From: Verrucomicrobiota bacterium
Lineage (GTDB): Bacteria; Verrucomicrobiota; Verrucomicrobiia; Limisphaerales; PALSA-1396
Length of the DNA stretch: 64,000 bases
Assembly (NCBI GenBank): GCA_016200005.1
Contig: JACQFP010000084.1
Coordinates: 1 to 64,000, forward strand
Direction of reading: 5' to 3'
A program made the translations under genes and the position numbers. Below the pieces are notes generated by a model. That model was not told the origin of the DNA. It was given only the letters and a program-made list of their open reading frames with translations, and did not search any database. Shown here piece after piece: positions 16,812 to 64,000 of this stretch (within the stretch, counting starts at the first letter, position 1; every line of letters starts with the position of its first letter).

Positions 16812-16885
16812 GCGGGCGTAGTTCAATGGTAGAACGGAAGCCTTCCAAGCTTCACACGAGGGTTCGATTCCCTTCGCCCGCTCCA
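16812..16885 (+). tRNA. tRNA-Gly(UCC), ordinary
   Basis: Acceptor stem GCGGGCG/CGCCCGC, discriminator T73 and encoded CCA. The anticodon loop is CTTCCAA (anticodon TCC), and the T-loop is the normal TTCGATT on a GAGGG/CCCTT stem. The D-arm AGTTCAATGGTAGAAC has the usual GG. It is a useful in-window contrast to the altered tRNAs at 61.5-63.6 kb. Confidence 0.97.
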
Positions 16886-57405: not shown

Positions 57406-58902
57406 ATGCCGCTTCCTGATCTCATCGAAATCGTACCGCTCGACAAGCCGGTGCGCGCAGAAATAACCGTGCCCGGCTCGAAGAGCATTACGAACCGCGC
57501 GCTGATTCTGGCGGCGTTGGCGGAGGGCGAAGTCACTTTGGAGGGCGCGCTGTGGAGCGAAGACACGCAAGTGATGGTCGAGGCGCTTCGGAAACTTGGC
57601 TTTGACGTAAGAGTTGAGGCCGATCCAAACGAGTTCTGCAATCGCACCATTACCGTCACGGGTCTTGGCGGAAAAATTCCGAACGCGGGAACAGCGGAAA
57701 AGCCGTTGGAACTTTTTGTGGGCAACGCGGGAACAGCGGCGCGATTTTTGTCCGCGTTGGTTTGTTTGGGGAACGGGGTTTATCGGCTGCACGGCGTTCC
57801 TCGAATGCATGATCGGCCGCAGGCAGCGTTGTTCAAAGCATTGCGTGAGCTTGGCTATCGGGTGGATTCGCCGAATGACAGACTGCCGGCGATCATTTTC
57901 GGGTGTAGCAGCCGACGTGAGTCGGCTCACTCTTCACAATCTGAAATGAGTCAGAGCCGACTCACGTCGGCTGCTACGAGTGGAGGAGTGCGCTCCTGCA
58001 CCGTGAGCATCGAGGAGAGTTCGCAATTTGCCTCGGCGTTGTTGCTGTGTTCGAGAATCGGCGGCTGGCAGGTCAAGGTCGTTGGTGAGAATGCCGAGGA
58101 ATCGCCTTACGTTGCGATGACTGCGAAACTCATCGATGCTTTACCAAACCGTGGCGGCAAATTTCAAATTGAGCCGGACGCTTCCAGCGGAAGCTATTTT
58201 TTGGCGGCGGGTCATGCTGAACTGATGGAAAAGTCCGAATTCCACTCTGAGGATGGCTTGCGTCATGAGATGAAATTCACCTCACGGTTGACAGTGCAAA
58301 TTGTCAACTGGCCTTTTTCAAGCTGGCAGATGGACGAAAGGTTCCTTGAGCATTTCTCTGAAATGGAGAGCAGAACTCGACATTATGCTGCTACGTTCTT
58401 TGGACTGAGCGATTCTGAGATCGACGAAATCGTGGCCGAATCGCTGGATCGAGATATTAGGCAGGTCATTTCACGCCGCGATGAATTGGGCGATAGCATT
58501 ATGACTGCAATTGCGCTCGCGCCGCTTTTAACCGAACCGATTCGCTTCACTGACTTGGGTCGTCTTCGTGTCCAGGAATGCGAGCGCGTCGCCGCCTTGC
58601 GTACTGAATTAACCAAGTGCGGCGCGAAGGTCGTCGAGGAAGGCGACACGCTGACGGTTTATCCCTCGCAACTCCACGGCGAGGAAATCGAAACCTACAA
58701 CGATCATCGCATGGCGATGTGTTTCGCGATTCTGGGATTGAAAGTGCCGGGGATAAAAATCAAAAATCCCGCGTGCGTGAAGAAAACATTCCCGAACTTT
58801 TTCCAGAAACTCGCCGCGCCGCCGCCGTCCGGCTTGGGCGCGACGATTCTGGACGCGAAGACCGGGCGGAAATTGGCAGTGGATGAATTATTTGCGGAGT
58901 GA
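57406..58902 (+). CDS. aroA: 3-phosphoshikimate 1-carboxyvinyltransferase (EPSP synthase), enlarged
   Basis: A 498-residue protein, longer than the usual ~430. Conserved parts are VPGSKSITNRALILAALAEG, LFVGNAGTAARFLSALV, HDRPQAALFKALRELG, SSQFASALLL, IEPDASSGSYFLA, LGDSIMTAIALAPL, RFTDLGRLRVQECERVAALR and TYNDHRMAMCFAILGL. A perfect inverted repeat (57905-57977) is translated in frame between PAIIFG and SCTVSIEESSQ. A second non-standard stretch lies between SSWQMDERF and DELGDSIM. Catalytic residues remain, so the enzyme is probably active. It follows tyrA closely. Confidence 0.93.
   Translation: MPLPDLIEIVPLDKPVRAEITVPGSKSITNRALILAALAEGEVTLEGALWSEDTQVMVEALRKLGFDVRVEADPNEFCNRTITVTGLGGKIPNAGTAEKPLELFVGNAGTAARFLSALVCLGNGVYRLHGVPRMHDRPQAALFKALRELGYRVDSPNDRLPAIIFGCSSRRESAHSSQSEMSQSRLTSAATSGGVRSCTVSIEESSQFASALLLCSRIGGWQVKVVGENAEESPYVAMTAKLIDALPNRGGKFQIEPDASSGSYFLAAGHAELMEKSEFHSEDGLRHEMKFTSRLTVQIVNWPFSSWQMDERFLEHFSEMESRTRHYAATFFGLSDSEIDEIVAESLDRDIRQVISRRDELGDSIMTAIALAPLLTEPIRFTDLGRLRVQECERVAALRTELTKCGAKVVEEGDTLTVYPSQLHGEEIETYNDHRMAMCFAILGLKVPGIKIKNPACVKKTFPNFFQKLAAPPPSGLGATILDAKTGRKLAVDELFAE
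57905..57977. mobile_element. Perfect 24-bp inverted-repeat element inside aroA
   Basis: Two 24-nt arms at 57905-57928 and 57954-57977 are exact reverse complements around a 25-nt centre. Each arm holds its own smaller GCCGAC/GTCGGC hairpin, so the unit can fold as one long or two short hairpins. A further hairpin (GGAG-TGCG-CTCC) follows directly. It is in frame and adds about 25-30 residues to EPSP synthase. Its shape suits a non-autonomous REP-like or MITE-like palindrome; no target duplication is obvious. Confidence 0.7.
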
Positions 58903-60759: not shown

Positions 60760-60787
60760 TTGAATGTAACCTTCTCCCGTGTTATAC
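60760..60787 (+). promoter_or_regulatory. Sigma-70-like promoter
   Basis: TTGAAT (60760-60765) and TTATAC (60782-60787) are spaced by 16 bases, close to the consensus. It precedes a structured stretch that ends at a strong terminator, with no open frame between. Confidence 0.5.
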
Positions 60788-60793
60788 GTCTCA

Positions 60794-61030
60794 TCAGTTC
60801 GATGAAAACTTGCTTACACATATCAGCCACGAGTTGGCCGACCATGGCGGTCGCGAAAGCGACACGGCATAGCCGGTATAACCCGGGTTGTGCGTTTAGC
60901 CTGGGACTATCCTCGGCACCAATCGGGCAACGCCCCGAAGGTAATTTGGATAGACTCGGTGTAGGCAGGTTCTGAAGAACGACGAAAGATTTCTCTCACC
61001 CTGCTTACCGCAAAGTAAGCAGGGTTTTTT
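60794..61030 (+). ncRNA. Candidate structured RNA upstream of the tRNA array
   Basis: About 237 nt between a sigma-70-like promoter and an intrinsic terminator. It can fold several hairpins: GTCGC-GAAA-GCGAC (60850-60863), CCCGGG pairing with CCTGGG around 60890-60905, CTATCC (60907) with GGATAG (60948) enclosing TCGGG/CCCGA, and GTTCT/AGAAC near 60970. No reading frame of note fits. I checked by eye for the RNase P, tmRNA, SRP and 6S signatures and did not find them. Its identity is unknown; its place before the tRNA array is suggestive. Confidence 0.45.
60999..61030 (+). terminator. Intrinsic terminator
   Basis: Perfect 10-bp stem CCCTGCTTAC/GTAAGCAGGG with a 6-nt loop, followed by TTTTTT. 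It ends the candidate RNA starting near 60794. Confidence 0.9.
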
Positions 61031-61079
61031 GTTTCCCTGAAACTGACGGTGAATGGCAGCGACCAAAGGTGAACGACTT

Positions 61080-61367
61080 GTGAACGATAACAAAGTGACG
61101 TCTTGATGATGTCTGACAGTGCCAAACGAATTCAGGCGCAGGAATGCCGAGGCGTTCCACCGATGGGCTGTACCCATCGCAAGCGAAGACGCGCGCCGGG
61201 ATCGTTTGAAACACTTTTACAATTCAAGGGCTTCGGAGGAGGTGTGCCCCTAAACACCGAAACAACCGCCGTGAAACCGCGGGCTGGGATCGAATAGATC
61301 GCCAGGAGGTGTTTGTTCTTTGTTGAAATTGCATGGGCCGGGAGCGCGAATGCTCCCGGCCCTTTTT
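61080..61367 (+). ncRNA. Second candidate structured RNA, ending at a terminator
   Basis: Between the first terminator and a second one lie further hairpins: GGAATGCC/GGCGTTCC near 61140, CGATGGG/CCCATCG near 61160-61178, GGTGT/ACACC near 61240, and CTGG-GATC/GATC-CCAG near 61284-61308. The promoter is not clear and the 5' end is a guess. No frame with protein character fits. It could be a small RNA or a leader of the tRNA array. Confidence 0.35.
61335..61367 (+). terminator. Intrinsic terminator
   Basis: Perfect 11-bp stem GGGCCGGGAGC/GCTCCCGGCCC with a 6-nt loop, followed by TTTTT. The tRNA array begins 103 bases further on, so the array needs its own promoter or read-through. Confidence 0.9.
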
Positions 61368-61469: not shown

Positions 61470-61543
61470 GCGGTTGTGATTTAACAGCAGAATGGCTTCC
61501 CGCCACGGAGCATGTCCGGGTGCAACTCCCGGCAACCGCACCA
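61470..61543 (+). tRNA. tRNA-Gly(GCC)-like, altered elbow
   Basis: Acceptor GCGGTTG/CAACCGC, discriminator A and CCA. D-stem ATT/AAT with loop TAACAGCAG (no GG). Anticodon stem GCTTC/GGAGC, loop CCGCCAC: anticodon GCC, with C at position 33. T-stem CCGGG/CCCGG, loop TGCAACT (G55). Confidence 0.88.
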
Positions 61544-61586
61544 AATCATTTACGATTTCGGATTTGCGATTGACGATTTTCCCCAC

Positions 61587-61660
61587 AGGCCGCGCACCAG
61601 CTTGTGCAGCAGAGTCTCCAAAGCTCAGCCCACTCGGGGCAGCACCGAGGCGGCCTGCCA
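61587..61660 (+). tRNA. tRNA-Trp(CCA)-like, altered elbow
   Basis: Acceptor AGGCCGC/GCGGCCT, discriminator G73 (usual for Trp) and CCA. D-arm GCAC-CAGCTT-GTGC. Anticodon loop CTCCAAA, the standard Trp loop. T-stem CTCGG/CCGAG with loop GGCAGCA, the most divergent T-loop of the set. Confidence 0.86.
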
Positions 61661-61684
61661 AATCGAAAATCTTAAGTTCCCTTG

Positions 61685-61759
61685 GGGGTCGTGGCAGACA
61701 AGCAATGCTCTTGCCCTGCAAGCAAGCTCATGCGGGAGCGTTACCCGCCGACTCCACCA
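61685..61759 (+). tRNA. tRNA-Ala(UGC)-like with G3:U70
   Basis: Acceptor GGGGTCG/CGACTCC has a G3:U70 wobble, the alanyl-tRNA synthetase determinant, with A73 and CCA. D-stem GCA/TGC, loop GACAAGCAA. Anticodon stem CTTGC/GCAAG, loop CCTGCAA (C33). T-stem GCGGG/CCCGC, loop AGCGTTA (A54, G55, T58). Confidence 0.9.
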
Positions 61760-61765
61760 TTTCAC

Positions 61766-61843
61766 CGCCGGAAACTCGACCAATGCACATAGAGAAGCCT
61801 CATAAACTTCTTCAGGTGGGTGTGACTCCCACTCCCGCTACCA
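61766..61843 (+). tRNA. tRNA-Met(CAU)-like, initiator-like first pair
   Basis: Acceptor CGCCGGA/TCCCGCT: the first pair is a C1-T72 mismatch, recalling the C1-A72 mismatch of bacterial initiators; a C-C mismatch lies at pair 4. A73 and CCA. D-stem CTC/GAG with a 14-nt loop. Anticodon loop CTCATAA, stem GAAG/CTTC closed by a C-A mismatch. T-stem GTGGG/CCCAC, loop TGTGACT. The least perfect fold of the set. Confidence 0.75.
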
Positions 61844-61849
61844 ATTCCC

Positions 61850-61937
61850 GGGAAGTGATCCGGCTGCCGGTCTGTAAAACCGGTGTCTTCAAACAAGCTG
61901 GAAGCGACGACTGGAGCGTTACCAGCACTTCCCACCA
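61850..61937 (+). tRNA. tRNA-Tyr(GUA)-like without a D-arm
   Basis: Acceptor GGGAAGT/ACTTCCC, A73, CCA. Only ten bases (GATCCGGCTG) separate the acceptor from the anticodon stem, too few for a D-arm. Anticodon stem CCGGT/ACCGG, loop CTGTAAA. A long variable arm (GTC-TTC pairing GAA-GAC) is present, as in bacterial tRNA-Tyr. T-stem CTGG/CCAG, loop AGCGTTA. Confidence 0.82.
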
Positions 61938-61942
61938 TTTCT

Positions 61943-62018
61943 GGACTCGTAGCTCAACCAGTAGAGCGCCCCGTTGTCTGCGGGAAGGCTGAGGGTGCAA
62001 GTCCCTTCGGGTCCGCCA
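61943..62018 (+). tRNA. tRNA-Asp(GUC)-like, altered elbow
   Basis: Acceptor GGACTCG/CGGGTCC, G73 (usual for Asp), CCA. D-stem GCTC/GAGC, loop AACCAGTA (no GG). Anticodon loop TTGTCTG on CCCG/CGGG. T-stem GAGGG/CCCTT, loop TGCAAGT. Confidence 0.9.
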
Positions 62019-62076
62019 ATTTCAAATCTTACCGCGATGCCAATGATCAGGGTTTGTGGCTTCGCGATCCTCCGCT

Positions 62077-62102
62077 CCGACGACTGCTTCTCAGTTCGTC
62101 GG
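62077..62102 (+). repeat. Hairpin in the Asp-Pro spacer
   Basis: CCGACGACTG pairs with CAG-T-TCGTCGG across a 5-nt loop, just before tRNA-Pro. It may be a processing signal or a decayed tRNA arm; no T-run follows, so it is not a terminator. Confidence 0.6.
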
Positions 62103-62108
62103 GGCAAC

Positions 62109-62183
62109 CAGCGCGTGGTGTAGCAGCAACATGCTCGGCCTGGAACCGAGGGACCGCAGGTGCAAGTCCTGCCGCGCTGACCA
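62109..62183 (+). tRNA. tRNA-Pro(UGG)-like, altered elbow
   Basis: Acceptor CAGCGCG/CGCGCTG with C1:G72, A73 and CCA; C1:G72 with A73 is the prolyl synthetase signature. D-stem GTG/CAT, loop TAGCAGCAA. Anticodon stem CTCGG/CCGAG, loop CCTGGAA (C33). T-stem GCAGG/CCTGC, loop TGCAAGT. Confidence 0.9.
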
Positions 62184-62190
62184 ATTTCAT

Positions 62191-62266
62191 TGCTCAGTGG
62201 GATAACGAGTAGTCCACCTGCCTGTTAAGCAGGATGGTGCTGGTGCGAATCCAGCCTGAGCAGCCA
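62191..62266 (+). tRNA. tRNA-Asn(GUU)-like, altered elbow
   Basis: Acceptor TGCTCAG/CTGAGCA with T1:A72 and G73, as in bacterial tRNA-Asn, plus CCA. D-stem GGA/TCC, loop TAACGAGTAG. Anticodon stem CCTGC/GCAGG, loop CTGTTAA. T-stem GCTGG/CCAGC, loop TGCGAAT. Confidence 0.9.
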
Positions 62267-62275
62267 ATTTCAAAT

Positions 62276-62351
62276 GCTCGCGTAGCTCAATTACCAGAGC
62301 GCGACGCTTCTAACGTCGGAGATGAAGGTGGGAGTCCTTCCGCGAGTGCCA
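62276..62351 (+). tRNA. tRNA-Arg(UCU)-like, altered elbow
   Basis: Acceptor GCTCGCG/CGCGAGT, G73, CCA. D-stem GCTC/GAGC, loop AATTACCA. Anticodon stem CGACG/CGTCG, loop CTTCTAA. T-stem GAAGG/CCTTC, loop TGGGAGT; positions 55-56 are GG and the D-loop offers CC. Confidence 0.9.
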
Positions 62352-62386
62352 ATCGTAAATCGTAAATCTGAAATCGTAAATTCCAT

Positions 62387-62475
62387 GGAAGGCAGGCAGA
62401 TATAAGCTGGCTGCACCTGTCTCGAAAACAGGATCGGCATCCCCGAGGTCGGAGCGTTACCGACGCCTTCCGCCA
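62387..62475 (+). tRNA. tRNA-Ser(CGA)-like, altered elbow
   Basis: Acceptor GGAAGGC/GCCTTCC, G73 (usual for Ser), CCA. D-stem GCAG/CTGC, loop ATATAAGCTGG. Anticodon stem CCTGT/ACAGG, loop CTCGAAA. The long variable arm (TCGG/CCGA) is kept, as expected for Ser. T-stem GTCGG/CCGAC, loop AGCGTTA. Confidence 0.91.
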
Positions 62476-62504
62476 TTTACCAACCCTTAACGAAAGGAAA
62501 TTCC

Positions 62505-62654
62505 ATGAAACCCTTACTCCGTTACCAAAGCCAATTGCTCTTTCGCAAGAGCTACAAACCAAATCGTGTCCTCCGAATCCGCCCGGTGAAATTGAATTTC
62601 GTATTTCGTCCGGTCCGCTTCGGACTGAAACCAAAAATCAAAACTGTCCCGTAG
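62505..62654 (+). CDS. Small very basic peptide frame overlapping tRNA-Ile
   Basis: ATG at 62505 opens 49 codons (MKPLLRYQSQLLFRKSYKPN and onward) with about 15 Lys/Arg and no Asp or Glu. Its stop TAG at 62652-62654 lies inside the tRNA-Ile gene. An AAAGGA site lies 6 bases upstream, in the same context (CGAAAGGA) as the site before the DIP1984-like gene. It could bind RNA, or be an accident of an AT-rich word-repeat spacer. Confidence 0.35.
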   Translation: MKPLLRYQSQLLFRKSYKPNRVLRIRPVKLNFVFRPVRFGLKPKIKTVP

Positions 62655-62718
62655 CTCAAAAGCAGAGCGCTCGCCTGATAAGCGAGCGACCGCGGAGCGT
62701 TACCGCGCGGGACAACCA
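62645..62718 (+). tRNA. tRNA-Ile(GAU)-like, altered elbow
   Basis: Acceptor TGTCCCG/CGGGACA, A73, CCA. D-stem GCTC/GAGC, loop AAAAGCA. Anticodon stem CTCGC/GCGAG, loop CTGATAA. T-stem CGCGG/CCGCG, loop AGCGTTA. Confidence 0.91.
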
Positions 62719-62762
62719 ATTGTAAACCCCAAAACCGAAATCTGAAAACCGAAAGGACTCCC

Positions 62763-63209
62763 ATGAAGATCGCCAAGGCACTCAAGTTGAAGAACCAACT
62801 GGCGGGCGAAGTCGCCCAGTTGAAGGACTTGCTCGCCAAGCAGAACGTCCGCAGCACCAAGCAGAAGTTCGACTACGACAGCCGCGAAGTCCTCGCGCGT
62901 CTGCGCGCCAAACTCGACGAGTTGATCAACGTCAAGGCCGCGATCGCCGCCGCCAACGTGGAAGTCTATCAAAAGATCTTCCGCCTGGCCGAGCTCAAAG
63001 GCGTCGTGACCACGTTGACCAGCCTTGACACCAAGGCCGGCGTGTTCCACGAGGGCGGCCGCTTCGGCGAGCCGGCGTACGAAGTCGAATACGTCGCCCA
63101 GCTTGGCAAGGTGGACGTGGACCAGCATGTCGCGGAGTTGAAGAACGAAATCCAGGCGCTGCAAGACGCGCTGGACGAATTCAACTTCACGCACGCGGTG
63201 AGCGCCTGA
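62763..63209 (+). CDS. DIP1984-like (septicolysin-like) coiled-coil protein
   Basis: A 148-residue protein starting MKIAKALKLKNQLAGEVAQL, all helical, with two coiled-coil arms (residues ~1-75 and ~118-140) and a short central loop (HEGGRFGEPAYEVEYVAQLG). The layout and the end KVDVDQHVAELKNEIQALQ resemble the DIP1984 family, whose role is not established. It has no signal peptide. It sits between tRNA-Ile and tRNA-Phe in the array, before RtcB. An AAAGGA site precedes the ATG by 5 bases. It may be an RNA- or tRNA-binding partner. Confidence 0.75.
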   Translation: MKIAKALKLKNQLAGEVAQLKDLLAKQNVRSTKQKFDYDSREVLARLRAKLDELINVKAAIAAANVEVYQKIFRLAELKGVVTTLTSLDTKAGVFHEGGRFGEPAYEVEYVAQLGKVDVDQHVAELKNEIQALQDALDEFNFTHAVSA

Positions 63210-63512
63210 TTCGCCGTGTCAACGCATCGGACAAGTCTGTGTTGCATATGCAACATAAACTTGTCCCGGCGTGGTTTAGTCATTTTCGTGCGCAGTGGTG
63301 GAGGCGGGACGGAGTGGAAGCTGTTGTCGCACGCCCGCCTGGGCGTGTTCGCTCGCCAAAAGCGAGCAACCCACCGCTAATGGGTCAGGCTGATGCCGAT
63401 GCCGAGCGTCAAACCGCACCGGTCAATCCGCTCAAATCGCACGCTTCAAGCCGGAAGGCGCAAGCCTTTTGACGGCCTCCACAATGTTCTTCCGACGCCG
63501 CTGCGCACATTC
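63210..63512. other. Spacer between the DIP1984-like gene and tRNA-Phe
   Basis: No gene is convincing in these 303 bases. They hold a nested palindrome (63230-63265) and two smaller hairpins, CACGCCC/GGGCGTG near 63320 and CTCGC/GCGAG near 63350. A further decayed tRNA could be hidden but I could not fold one. Confidence 0.5.
63230..63265. repeat. Nested palindrome
   Basis: GACAAGT (63230-63236) and ACTTGTC (63259-63265) enclose the exact 16-bp palindrome TGTTGCATATGCAACA. It could be an operator for a dimeric regulator or an RNA hairpin. It lies 21 bases after the DIP1984-like stop. Confidence 0.6.
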
Positions 63513-63587
63513 CCCCGAGTAGCTGAGGCAGATTAGCGCCTCGCTGAAGCCGAGGAGACGTTGGCGCGATACCAACTTCGGGGGCCA
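63513..63587 (+). tRNA. tRNA-Phe(GAA)-like, altered elbow
   Basis: Acceptor CCCCGAG/TTCGGGG, G73, CCA. D-stem GCTG/TAGC, loop AGGCAGAT. Anticodon stem CCTCG/CGAGG, loop CTGAAGC. T-stem GTTGG/CCAAC, loop CGCGATA (G55). It lies 77 bases before RtcB. Confidence 0.87.
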
Positions 63588-63664
63588 ATTCAGTCGAGGG
63601 TCGCTGGTTGAGAGTTGAGAGACTCGAACCCGGCGCCTCTCGATTTATTTAACCCTCAACACAA

Positions 63665-64000
63665 ATGAACTCTCAACTTCTCTCCGTTCAGGTGCGCCTT
63701 TTCGCCTCGGCCCAAAGCCGGATCGAAGGCGAAGCGGTACGCCAACTCTATGCCACCGCGAAACTCGACGGTGTTCGACTCGCAGTCGGCTTCCCGGATT
63801 TGCACCCTGGCAAAGGCTCACCGGTCGGTGCGGCATTCGTGACCGAAGGTGTGATCTACCCGCACCTTATCGGTGGTGATATCGGTTGCGGCATGGCGTT
63901 GTTCAAAACGGACCTCGTCCGTCGTGACGCCAAGCTCGACCGCTGGGCCAGGCTGGCGTTCAATCTCGAGCACCCGTGGGATGAGTTCATCAGCGATTTC
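63665..64000 (+). CDS. rtcB: RNA ligase RtcB family (RtcB2-like), 5' part, cut by window edge
   Basis: The ATG at 63665 opens 112 codons that reach the right edge without a stop. Residues 44-55 are PDLHPGKGSPVG and residues 70-77 are GGDIGCGM, the RtcB metal-binding motifs (Asp72, Cys75). RtcB joins RNA 2',3'-cyclic phosphate ends to 5'-OH ends with GTP and Mn. The short N-terminus and PDLHPGKG/GDIGCGMALFKTDL wording suggest the RtcB2 branch, often paired with release factor PrfH, which would lie outside the window. The leader MNSQLLSVQ lies in a CTCTCAAC word repeat. Confidence 0.9.
   Translation, partial: MNSQLLSVQVRLFASAQSRIEGEAVRQLYATAKLDGVRLAVGFPDLHPGKGSPVGAAFVTEGVIYPHLIGGDIGCGMALFKTDLVRRDAKLDRWARLAFNLEHPWDEFISDF

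Follow-up and report, generated by a model that had tools for sequence, protein, structure and literature searches.

The distal part of the window, which is the 64,000-nt stretch of DNA analyzed here and to which plain coordinates refer, carries twelve tRNA-like genes between positions 61470 and 63587. All lie on the + strand, differ in identity, encode CCA and have G at T-loop position 55 (G55). They are accompanied by genes for a DIP1984-like protein and an RNA ligase. The host is a soil-type bacterium. Locus labels are used where loci must be told apart: L003 is the locus of the window array, read on past the window, and L004 is a second array in the same genome.

61470..61543, + strand: G55 tRNA-Gly(GCC)
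61587..61660, + strand: G55 tRNA-Trp(CCA)
61685..61759, + strand: G55 tRNA-Ala(TGC), with G3:U70 retained
61767..61842, + strand: Met-like (CAT) tRNA, decayed, with a broken acceptor stem and U56
61850..61937, + strand: G55 tRNA-Tyr(GTA), with a long variable arm and a short D arm
61943..62018, + strand: G55 tRNA-Asp(GTC)
62109..62183, + strand: G55 tRNA-Pro(TGG)
62191..62266, + strand: G55 tRNA-Asn(GTT)
62276..62351, + strand: G55 G56 tRNA-Arg(TCT), with D-loop AC, a C:G swap at 19:56
62387..62475, + strand: G55 tRNA-Ser(CGA), with a long variable arm
62645..62718, + strand: G55 tRNA-Ile(GAT)
62763..63209, + strand: DIP1984-like protein, 148 aa
63513..63587, + strand: G55 tRNA-Phe(GAA)
63665..64000, + strand: RtcB2 RNA ligase, the first part of a gene for 405 aa whose end lies 882 bases past the window

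The first-pass annotation had described twelve G55 tRNA-like genes with differing identities and encoded CCA. That description holds, but the set is larger than twelve: the array continues beyond the window toward the contig end, reaching ~34 tRNAs that cover all 20 amino acids when His is counted. Acceptor, anticodon and T stems, said to be intact throughout, are so in 11 of the 12 genes; the Met-like gene has the T-loop TGTGACT and pairs at best five of seven acceptor positions, against six of seven in its L004 paralogue. L003 and L004 both qualify as large arrays, meaning clusters of ~20 or more tRNA genes with many isotypes. G55 occurs in 32/33 well-scored tRNAs of L003 and 33/33 of L004, against 1/45 ordinary tRNAs elsewhere in the genome, an enrichment greater than chance in both arrays. 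The tRNA-Gly at 16812 has U55 and is normal, as had been noted. ARAGORN calls six of the twelve window tRNAs and Rfam finds five above threshold; many are missed because the elbow is unusual.

The G55 array had been known only from the window locus, and a search of other genomes had been proposed, with recurrence to count in favor of the first-pass reading. Recurrence is seen. Besides the second copy in the host, tandem G55 tRNAs were found in 36 of 196 sampled genomes of the host order, representing 30 of 107 genera, and on phage contigs. Phage L208, identified by terminase, portal, protease and major head protein genes, has an array made up almost entirely of G55 tRNAs, together with RtcB and HNH. 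We rejected G55 as a hallmark of all tRNA arrays, since plasmid and cultured-phage arrays (L212, L214-L217, L219, L220 and L222) have the ordinary U55 elbow, compared with G55 in 65/66 tRNAs of the host arrays. The HNH gene starts at L003:8786 and is complete in L004 and L012, placing it in the array or at its end, as in large tRNA arrays generally. Phage L208, the decayed tRNA-Met and the HNH family, which marks tRNA arrays of plasmids and phages, would all suit a phage-derived remnant that is decaying, or is maintained through a homing HNH endonuclease, and that brings the host no gain. We consider this quite unlikely given the spread of arrays through the order and the conservation of the leader, attenuator and repair genes, whose reading frames are full-length. 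No phage genes were seen in the flanks read of the chromosomal arrays, which also argues against a remnant and led us to reject a resident prophage.

G55 is one half of a covarying pair. The D-loop motif GG is found in 430/443 tRNAs with U55C56 versus 78/546 with G55C56, and 534 of the latter 546 have AG, so that D-loop G18 is replaced by A18. The neighboring 19:56 pair covaries as well: G55G56 tRNAs have AC (8/10), G55A56 tRNAs have AT (11/14) and U55U56 tRNAs have GA (14/16). The change is thus an alternative A18/G55 elbow; the elbow has not been lost, and G55 is not peculiar to the window array. This covariation speaks against the decay into pseudogenes that the first-pass annotation had named as grounds for refutation. 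Textbooks call the G18/U55 pair universal. A18/G55 appears to be an unrecognized natural alternative to it, present here in hundreds of tRNAs that standard finders often miss. A tRNA in which it replaces G18/U55 can receive neither Gm18 nor pseudouridine-55, and the altered elbow may make the array tRNAs insensitive to agents that recognize the ordinary one.

Because aminoacylation signals and covarying folds are kept, we read the array tRNAs as translation-competent. Where stem pairs have changed, a standard pair is retained in 552/623 cases, a figure somewhat biased by the finder itself, which requires mostly paired stems. Discriminator bases are kept in 136/155 tRNAs (shuffled mean 69, shuffled maximum 92), and G3:U70 is kept in 4/4 tRNA-Ala. 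Some array tRNAs may work poorly, since discriminators depart from those of the host in Phe (G versus host A) and in many Gly (A versus host U), C33 occurs in 26/155 tRNAs, and the Leu tRNAs have no long variable arm. A decoy role, in which the array would soak up tRNA-cutting nucleases or sensors without being used in translation, was among the first suggestions for this locus. The linked RtcB2, Ro60 in sister arrays, the unusual elbow and anticodon loops of varied identity would be in keeping with it. It fits poorly, however, because the discriminators and the Ala G3:U70 pair are kept, and a switch responding to tRNA shortage makes little sense for decoys; we regard it as very improbable.

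The neighboring genes argue for another early suggestion, a set of reserve tRNAs linked with RNA repair. The ligase scores above both RtcB2 cut-offs, with 417.9 bits for TIGR03073 (cut-off 271.8) and 478.7 for NF007153 (cut-off 407). The DIP1984-like protein matches NF038048 over its full length at 25.5 bits, short of the curated cut-off of 70, and its gene is also part of a classical rtcR/rtcB/rtcA operon, that of the relative L020. Sister arrays carry Ro60, RlaP and RNA ligase; the Ro60/TROVE gene is absent from the window copy and occurs in L004 and 12 other arrays. A fold search describes the DIP1984-like protein as a helical hairpin protein, with a weak match at rank 18 (E 0.13) to 3kdq from Corynebacterium diphtheriae, which we take to be the probable structure of the DIP1984 family. 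Connexin fold matches were weak and were dismissed as not meaningful; sequence comparison with the PDB gave nothing meaningful, and an IMG/VR search returned no close relatives. The prfH gene, expected directly after rtcB in the first-pass annotation, was not found adjoining it, and tRNAs come next; across the host genome the best PrfH matches fall below cut-off, with no true PrfH among them.

Upstream of the tRNAs lies a leader region that was missing from the first-pass annotation, along with any logic of attenuation or induction.

60760..60788, + strand: candidate promoter read from sequence, with -35 TTGAAT (60760-60765), a 17-nt spacer and -10 TATACG (60783-60788)
60802..60975, + strand: leader peptide ORF of 57 aa, MKTCLHISATSWPTMAVAKATRHSRYNPGCAFSLGLSSAPIGQRPEGNLDRLGVGRF and a stop, in which each of the 20 amino acids occurs and 47 different codons are used
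60961..60969, + strand: competitor (antiterminator) strand GTAGGCAGG, lying in the final codons of the leader ORF, whose pairing partner is the 5' arm of terminator 1
60998..61031, + strand: terminator 1, hairpin ACCCTGCTTAC/GTAAGCAGGGT and a T run, -18.6 kcal/mol, kept in 16 other arrays
61238..61276, + strand: conserved leader RNA core, with ~92% identity over 39 nt to L018, L120 and L207
61335..61369, + strand: terminator-like hairpin 2 and a T run, -27.5 kcal/mol

This architecture is strongly supported. At its end, the ORF overlaps the competitor of an intrinsic terminator, and it is enriched for the amino acids that would be sensed, here all 20, as in leader attenuation. Pairing of the competitor is calculated at -15.5 kcal/mol, versus -18.6 for terminator 1. 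A strong terminator with a competitor upstream is found in 17 array leaders, including sequence variants such as GTAAGCAGG with CCTGCTTAC and, in L017, CGAGCAGG with CCTGCTCG; L249 has the attenuator and lacks an intact leader ORF. Comparable -35 and -10 elements occur at a like distance before the leader ORF in L004, L013, L246, L260 and others.

The leader ORF recurs in sister arrays and phages with a diverged sequence and a retained all-20 composition. Its 47 distinct codons among 57 exceed those of every sampled gene segment. Overall, leader peptides contain all 20 amino acids in 14/18 cases and 19 in the remaining four, although those of L018 and L120 were picked with knowledge of their composition and the counts are not all independent because the peptides fall into few sequence families. 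A blind scan, independent of that pick, searched by layout (a leader ORF ending on the competitor of an intrinsic terminator). Among 21 array loci it returned 14 leaders, 12 with 20 and two with 19 distinct amino acids; in 1.9 Mb of other, control loci it returned three matches, with 13, 14 and 20, the last of these, L143, being itself a G55 tRNA locus of a phage. In the background, ORFs of 41-61 aa have 20 amino acids in 2.2% of cases and 19 or more in 9.2%. The leader of phage L172 fits all 20 within 41 residues. Strong purifying selection on the peptide was not seen: the two host copies differ at 12 nonsynonymous and five synonymous codons. Such poor sequence conservation is expected if composition is what is selected.

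We propose that the locus probably works by transcription attenuation that senses any tRNA loss and in response turns on spare tRNAs together with repair enzymes. By default, polymerase would start just upstream of the leader ORF; a ribosome able to read every codon would reach the stop codon and cover the competitor, so that the terminator hairpin forms and the island stays off. If any tRNA were missing (cleaved, uncharged or depleted), or elongation were blocked generally, the ribosome would stall earlier, since a leader with every amino acid and an unusually high number of different codons would make any tRNA shortage felt. The competitor could then pair with the 5' arm of the terminator, and transcription would go on into the conserved leader RNA, a second all-20 tRNA set, RtcB2 to reseal cut RNA, the DIP1984-like protein and the HNH protein.

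A related explanation is that the leader, like those of the ermC/msr type, responds to antibiotics that block translation and stall ribosomes generally, and not to tRNA loss; the all-20 composition would then serve only to make any slow codon enough. The trn operon of Anabaena is induced by elongation-blocking antibiotics, and TrcR, the repressor of the operon, has rtcB under its control as well (PMC10272220); a single attenuator would moreover answer both antibiotic stalling and tRNA loss. An antibiotic sensor needs no set composition, yet the diverged peptides keep all 20 amino acids, and the output consists of tRNAs and an RNA ligase. We therefore judge antibiotic sensing to be unlikely as the main function.

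Attenuation of the trp and his type likewise has a translated leader peptide that overlaps a terminator and an antiterminator, only one of which can form at a time. Leaders of that type favor one amino acid or a few and regulate biosynthesis, whereas the window leader has all 20 and would control tRNAs and RNA repair. To our knowledge, no described attenuator senses more than a few amino acids. We lean toward a broader reading as well, namely a universal sensor of tRNA sufficiency by which a cell or phage may detect any tRNA loss and answer with a tRNA set of different elbow and with RNA repair. If true, a whole-alphabet leader would be a general RNA-only sensor of translation capacity and a shared counter-weapon against tRNA-cutting defenses and toxins. 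It would also explain the silence of large phage and bacterial tRNA arrays until they are needed, and leader and elbow together would make the purpose of such arrays directly testable.

Parts of this arrangement have precedents. The trn operon of Anabaena PCC 7120, 26 tRNAs on a megaplasmid within the TrcR regulon, is likewise a large array, silent in normal growth and induced by translational stress, with rtcB and HNH in the regulon, but it is controlled by a protein repressor (PMC10272220). Two other cyanobacterial plasmid arrays are nearly all U55 and gave no leader-attenuator match. The RtcB2-PrfH repair pair (PMC9223846) shares the TIGR03073-type RtcB and differs in its prfH. The rsr-yrlBA-rtcBA operon also combines RtcB with Ro60 in a response to damaged tRNA, and differs in having a single tRNA-like Y RNA and control by RtcR (PMC7790460). 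Mycobacterial GOLLD/HNH arrays resemble the present ones in their ~30 tRNAs, HNH, tRNA-Leu with a short variable arm, tRNA-Ile(TAT) and probable phage ancestry, while the parts of that account available to us describe neither RtcB nor an all-20 leader (PMC6582537). Two Mycolicibacterium plasmid arrays differ further in being U55.

The proposed model does not account for the conserved leader core and terminator 2, downstream of the attenuator. An Rfam search of L003:400-1480 found no leader family, T-box or other, at gathering score, and identity of the core with GOLLD, T-box or other known RNAs was rejected for want of a match. GOLLD RNA (RF02032) is absent from L003 and L004 and lies within the sister arrays L017 and L249, a further likeness to the mycobacterial arrays.

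Towards its end the window has 12 tRNA-like genes (61470-63587, + strand throughout), and T-loop position 55 is G in 12/12, as the first-pass annotation had reported. It had also described intact stems in all twelve, which holds for the 11 structurally complete genes but not for one:

~61767-61842, + strand, Met-like tRNA with a broken acceptor stem and U56

The proposed set of twelve is correct inside the window but is part of a longer array. The contig extends 4,959 bases past the window end, where RtcB is complete and the array goes on, and the stretch holding both parts (L003) contains 33 well-scored tRNAs, 32 of them G55, which span all 20 amino acids provided that an ARAGORN-called His gene is counted. 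A second copy with identical gene order (L004, G000:C25) lies on a different contig of the same genome; its tRNAs are G55 in 33/33, its DIP1984-like gene and RtcB are 83% and 80% identical to those of the window copy, and it has an extra Ro60/TROVE gene. The tRNAs elsewhere in the genome form an ordinary set, with U55 in 44/45; the remaining one, an isolated tRNA-Glu(CTC) with D-loop CAG (L069, G000:C3:37171-37272), is the genome's sole G55 tRNA beyond the arrays and possibly an array escapee serving the host. A palindromic repeat of the GTAGCAGCC...GGCTGCTAC type occurs in aroA (window ~57900-57990) and in rtcB (L003:4391-4475), seemingly inserted in frame in each; the second rtcB copy carries another GC-rich palindrome at the identical site.

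In the ordinary tRNA elbow, U55 contacts G18 and C56 contacts G19 (PMC7912444). T-loops and D-loops were compared across host tRNAs, chromosomal arrays and phage arrays. The D-loop has GG in 430/443 U55C56 tRNAs versus 78/546 G55C56 tRNAs, and AG is present in 534/546 of the latter (Fisher p ~4e-176, inflated by related sequences). Position 19 tracks position 56: G55G56 occurs with AC (8/10), G55A56 with AT (11/14), U55U56 with GA (14/16) and U55G56 with GC (5/5). L017, a sister chromosomal array, and L025, a Bacteroidota array, each contain both kinds of elbow, every one with its matching D-loop. The covariation at 18/55 and 19/56 and the matched D-loops within mixed arrays argue that the elbow is kept in altered form; judged from these sequences, G55 is half of a pair, A18/G55, accompanied by a Watson-Crick-like 19:56 pair. 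This change takes away the targets of Gm18 and Psi55 formation, and it may also hide the array tRNAs from nucleases. Suppressor tRNAs with the A18-G55 combination have been described from laboratory selection; our search of open-licence literature yielded no article on a naturally occurring one.

Judged by sequence, the array tRNAs seem fit for use. In a set of 155 from seven loci, the discriminator base is that of the host isoacceptor in 136 (mean 69 and maximum 92 in 10,000 shuffles), and G3:U70 is present in 4/4 tRNA-Ala. Where stem pairs differ between orthologous tRNAs, 552/623 are still standard pairs, 441 via two-sided changes, a figure biased upward since the tRNA finder itself requires pairing. 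Odd features include C33 in 26/155, tRNA-Leu with a short variable arm, G73 in tRNA-Phe, and the following:

L003:7165-7258, L004:14904-14997 and L012:4418-4509, long-variable-arm tRNA with a Ser/Leu-like body and the Ile anticodon UAU

A further array tRNA (L014:7463-7537), apparently derived from tRNA-Gln, has anticodon TTA, which would read the UAA stop; it is either an ochre suppressor of natural origin or an artefact of assembly.

The leader upstream of the first tRNA shares 88% identity between the two copies over 669 nt, and its identity to the leader of L013, a sister array, is 73%. Its elements are, in order:

60760-60788, candidate promoter
60802 (start), leader ORF of 57 codons, its start inferred from conservation in a frame mechanically open further upstream
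60961-60969, competitor strand GTAGGCAGG, within the final codons of the leader ORF
60998-61031, terminator hairpin and T run
61238-61276, strongly conserved RNA core that lies between this terminator and a second one and is common to phage arrays

The terminator's 5' arm is a possible pairing partner of the competitor (-15.5 vs -18.6 kcal/mol for the terminator), so that the two structures are mutually exclusive. This layout recurs in 17 leaders, and competitor and terminator sequences co-vary in L017 and, on visual inspection, in L018 and phage contig L120. An Rfam search with the RNA core returned no family.

The window leader peptide contains all 20 amino acids, and among 18 leader peptides 14 contain all 20 and four contain 19, compared with 2.2% with all 20 among 3,624 background ORFs in a comparable length range. 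So as not to select by eye, a blind scan required a terminator, a competitor matching exactly over 8 nt and an ORF that ends at the competitor. In 21 array loci it gave 14 matches, one per locus (12 with 20 amino acids, two with 19), and, as these loci were found mostly via G55 tRNAs, this establishes the presence of the device in G55 arrays, but not its restriction to them. Of the seven loci missed by the strict scan, most fail through weak pairing or a weak T run, and a G-U pair is present in the window itself; L249 has an interrupted leader ORF. The other loci scanned, 1.9 Mb in total, gave three matches, with 13, 14 and 20 amino acids, the last in L143, a phage contig bearing G55 tRNAs. 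All 20 are reached separately in the L003-like, L017, L244/L251, L248/L254, L250 and L257 families, and in the phage leaders of L172 (only 41 residues) and L194. Different codons number 47/57 in the window leader and 37-45 in other leaders; genes reach ~32 and chance ORFs 33. The peptide sequence drifts, and it is the amino-acid alphabet that persists. Our search of open-licence papers turned up no leader described as using every amino acid, a result that argues only weakly for novelty.

Translation-coupled attenuation would explain all of the leader parts. Full translation of the leader ORF would hide the competitor and lead to termination, while a ribosome stalled at any leader codon would free it and let transcription read through. 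A leader with every amino acid would thus report on every tRNA, and the downstream genes would provide every tRNA and an enzyme resealing cut RNA; in phages, the same device would counter host anticodon nucleases. The window leader would work like trp-type attenuation, and to our knowledge it belongs to no described attenuator family. The large tRNA array of Anabaena is silent until translational stress and co-regulated with rtcB (PMC10272220), and RtcB operons respond to damaged tRNAs (PMC7790460), behavior that fits the proposed switch.

Recurrence, which the first-pass annotation had proposed as a check, was found: the tandem-T-arm pattern of G55 arrays is present in 36/196 genomes sampled from the order Limisphaerales and in 30/107 genera (the reversed pattern matches 2), and G55 arrays also occur in phage contigs. 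The named relatives with arrays are Verrucomicrobia MAGs, one labelled Pedosphaerales, and misassembly is possible at MAG-based loci. In 24 chromosomal array loci, 401/407 tRNAs are G55, an HNH gene stands at the array end in most, and RtcB and Ro60/TROVE genes are found in 16 and 13, respectively. L017 carries RlaP and an RNA ligase, and GOLLD RNA is present in L017 and L249. The DIP1984-like gene is less constant (7/196 genomes); in L020 its neighbors are rtcR on one side and rtcB-rtcA on the other, pointing to an RNA-repair tie independent of the tRNAs. IMG/VR phage contigs also have G55 tRNAs, frequently alongside U55, and L208, a clear phage (terminase, portal, head protease, major head protein), has a nearly pure G55 array with HNH and RtcB. 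In contrast, almost every tRNA is U55 in the fetched arrays of Nostoc, Mycolicibacterium and Acidiphilium plasmids and of huge or cultured phages.

Possible Y RNAs were noted at L004:9700-12270 and L245:10206-10275: GGGCCG...GGTTATC repeats and tRNA-like fragments with T55 upstream of Ro60 and, in two arrays, a match to the Rfam nematode sRNA family RF01656 that barely exceeds the threshold and immediately precedes Ro60. Among phage contigs with G55 tRNAs, RNase P RNA lies near the array in L136 and L091, and tmRNA in L097, L136 and L162. Two cultured phages have related gene sets. Myxococcus phage Mx1 (L223) has a TROVE/Ro60 protein, peptidyl-tRNA hydrolase, tRNAs and HNH in proximity. The jumbo Tunturiibacter phage Tunturi_5 (L214) has ~40 U55 tRNAs, HNH, RtcB and RimK together; in Anabaena, RtcB and RimK are regulated jointly with the trn operon.
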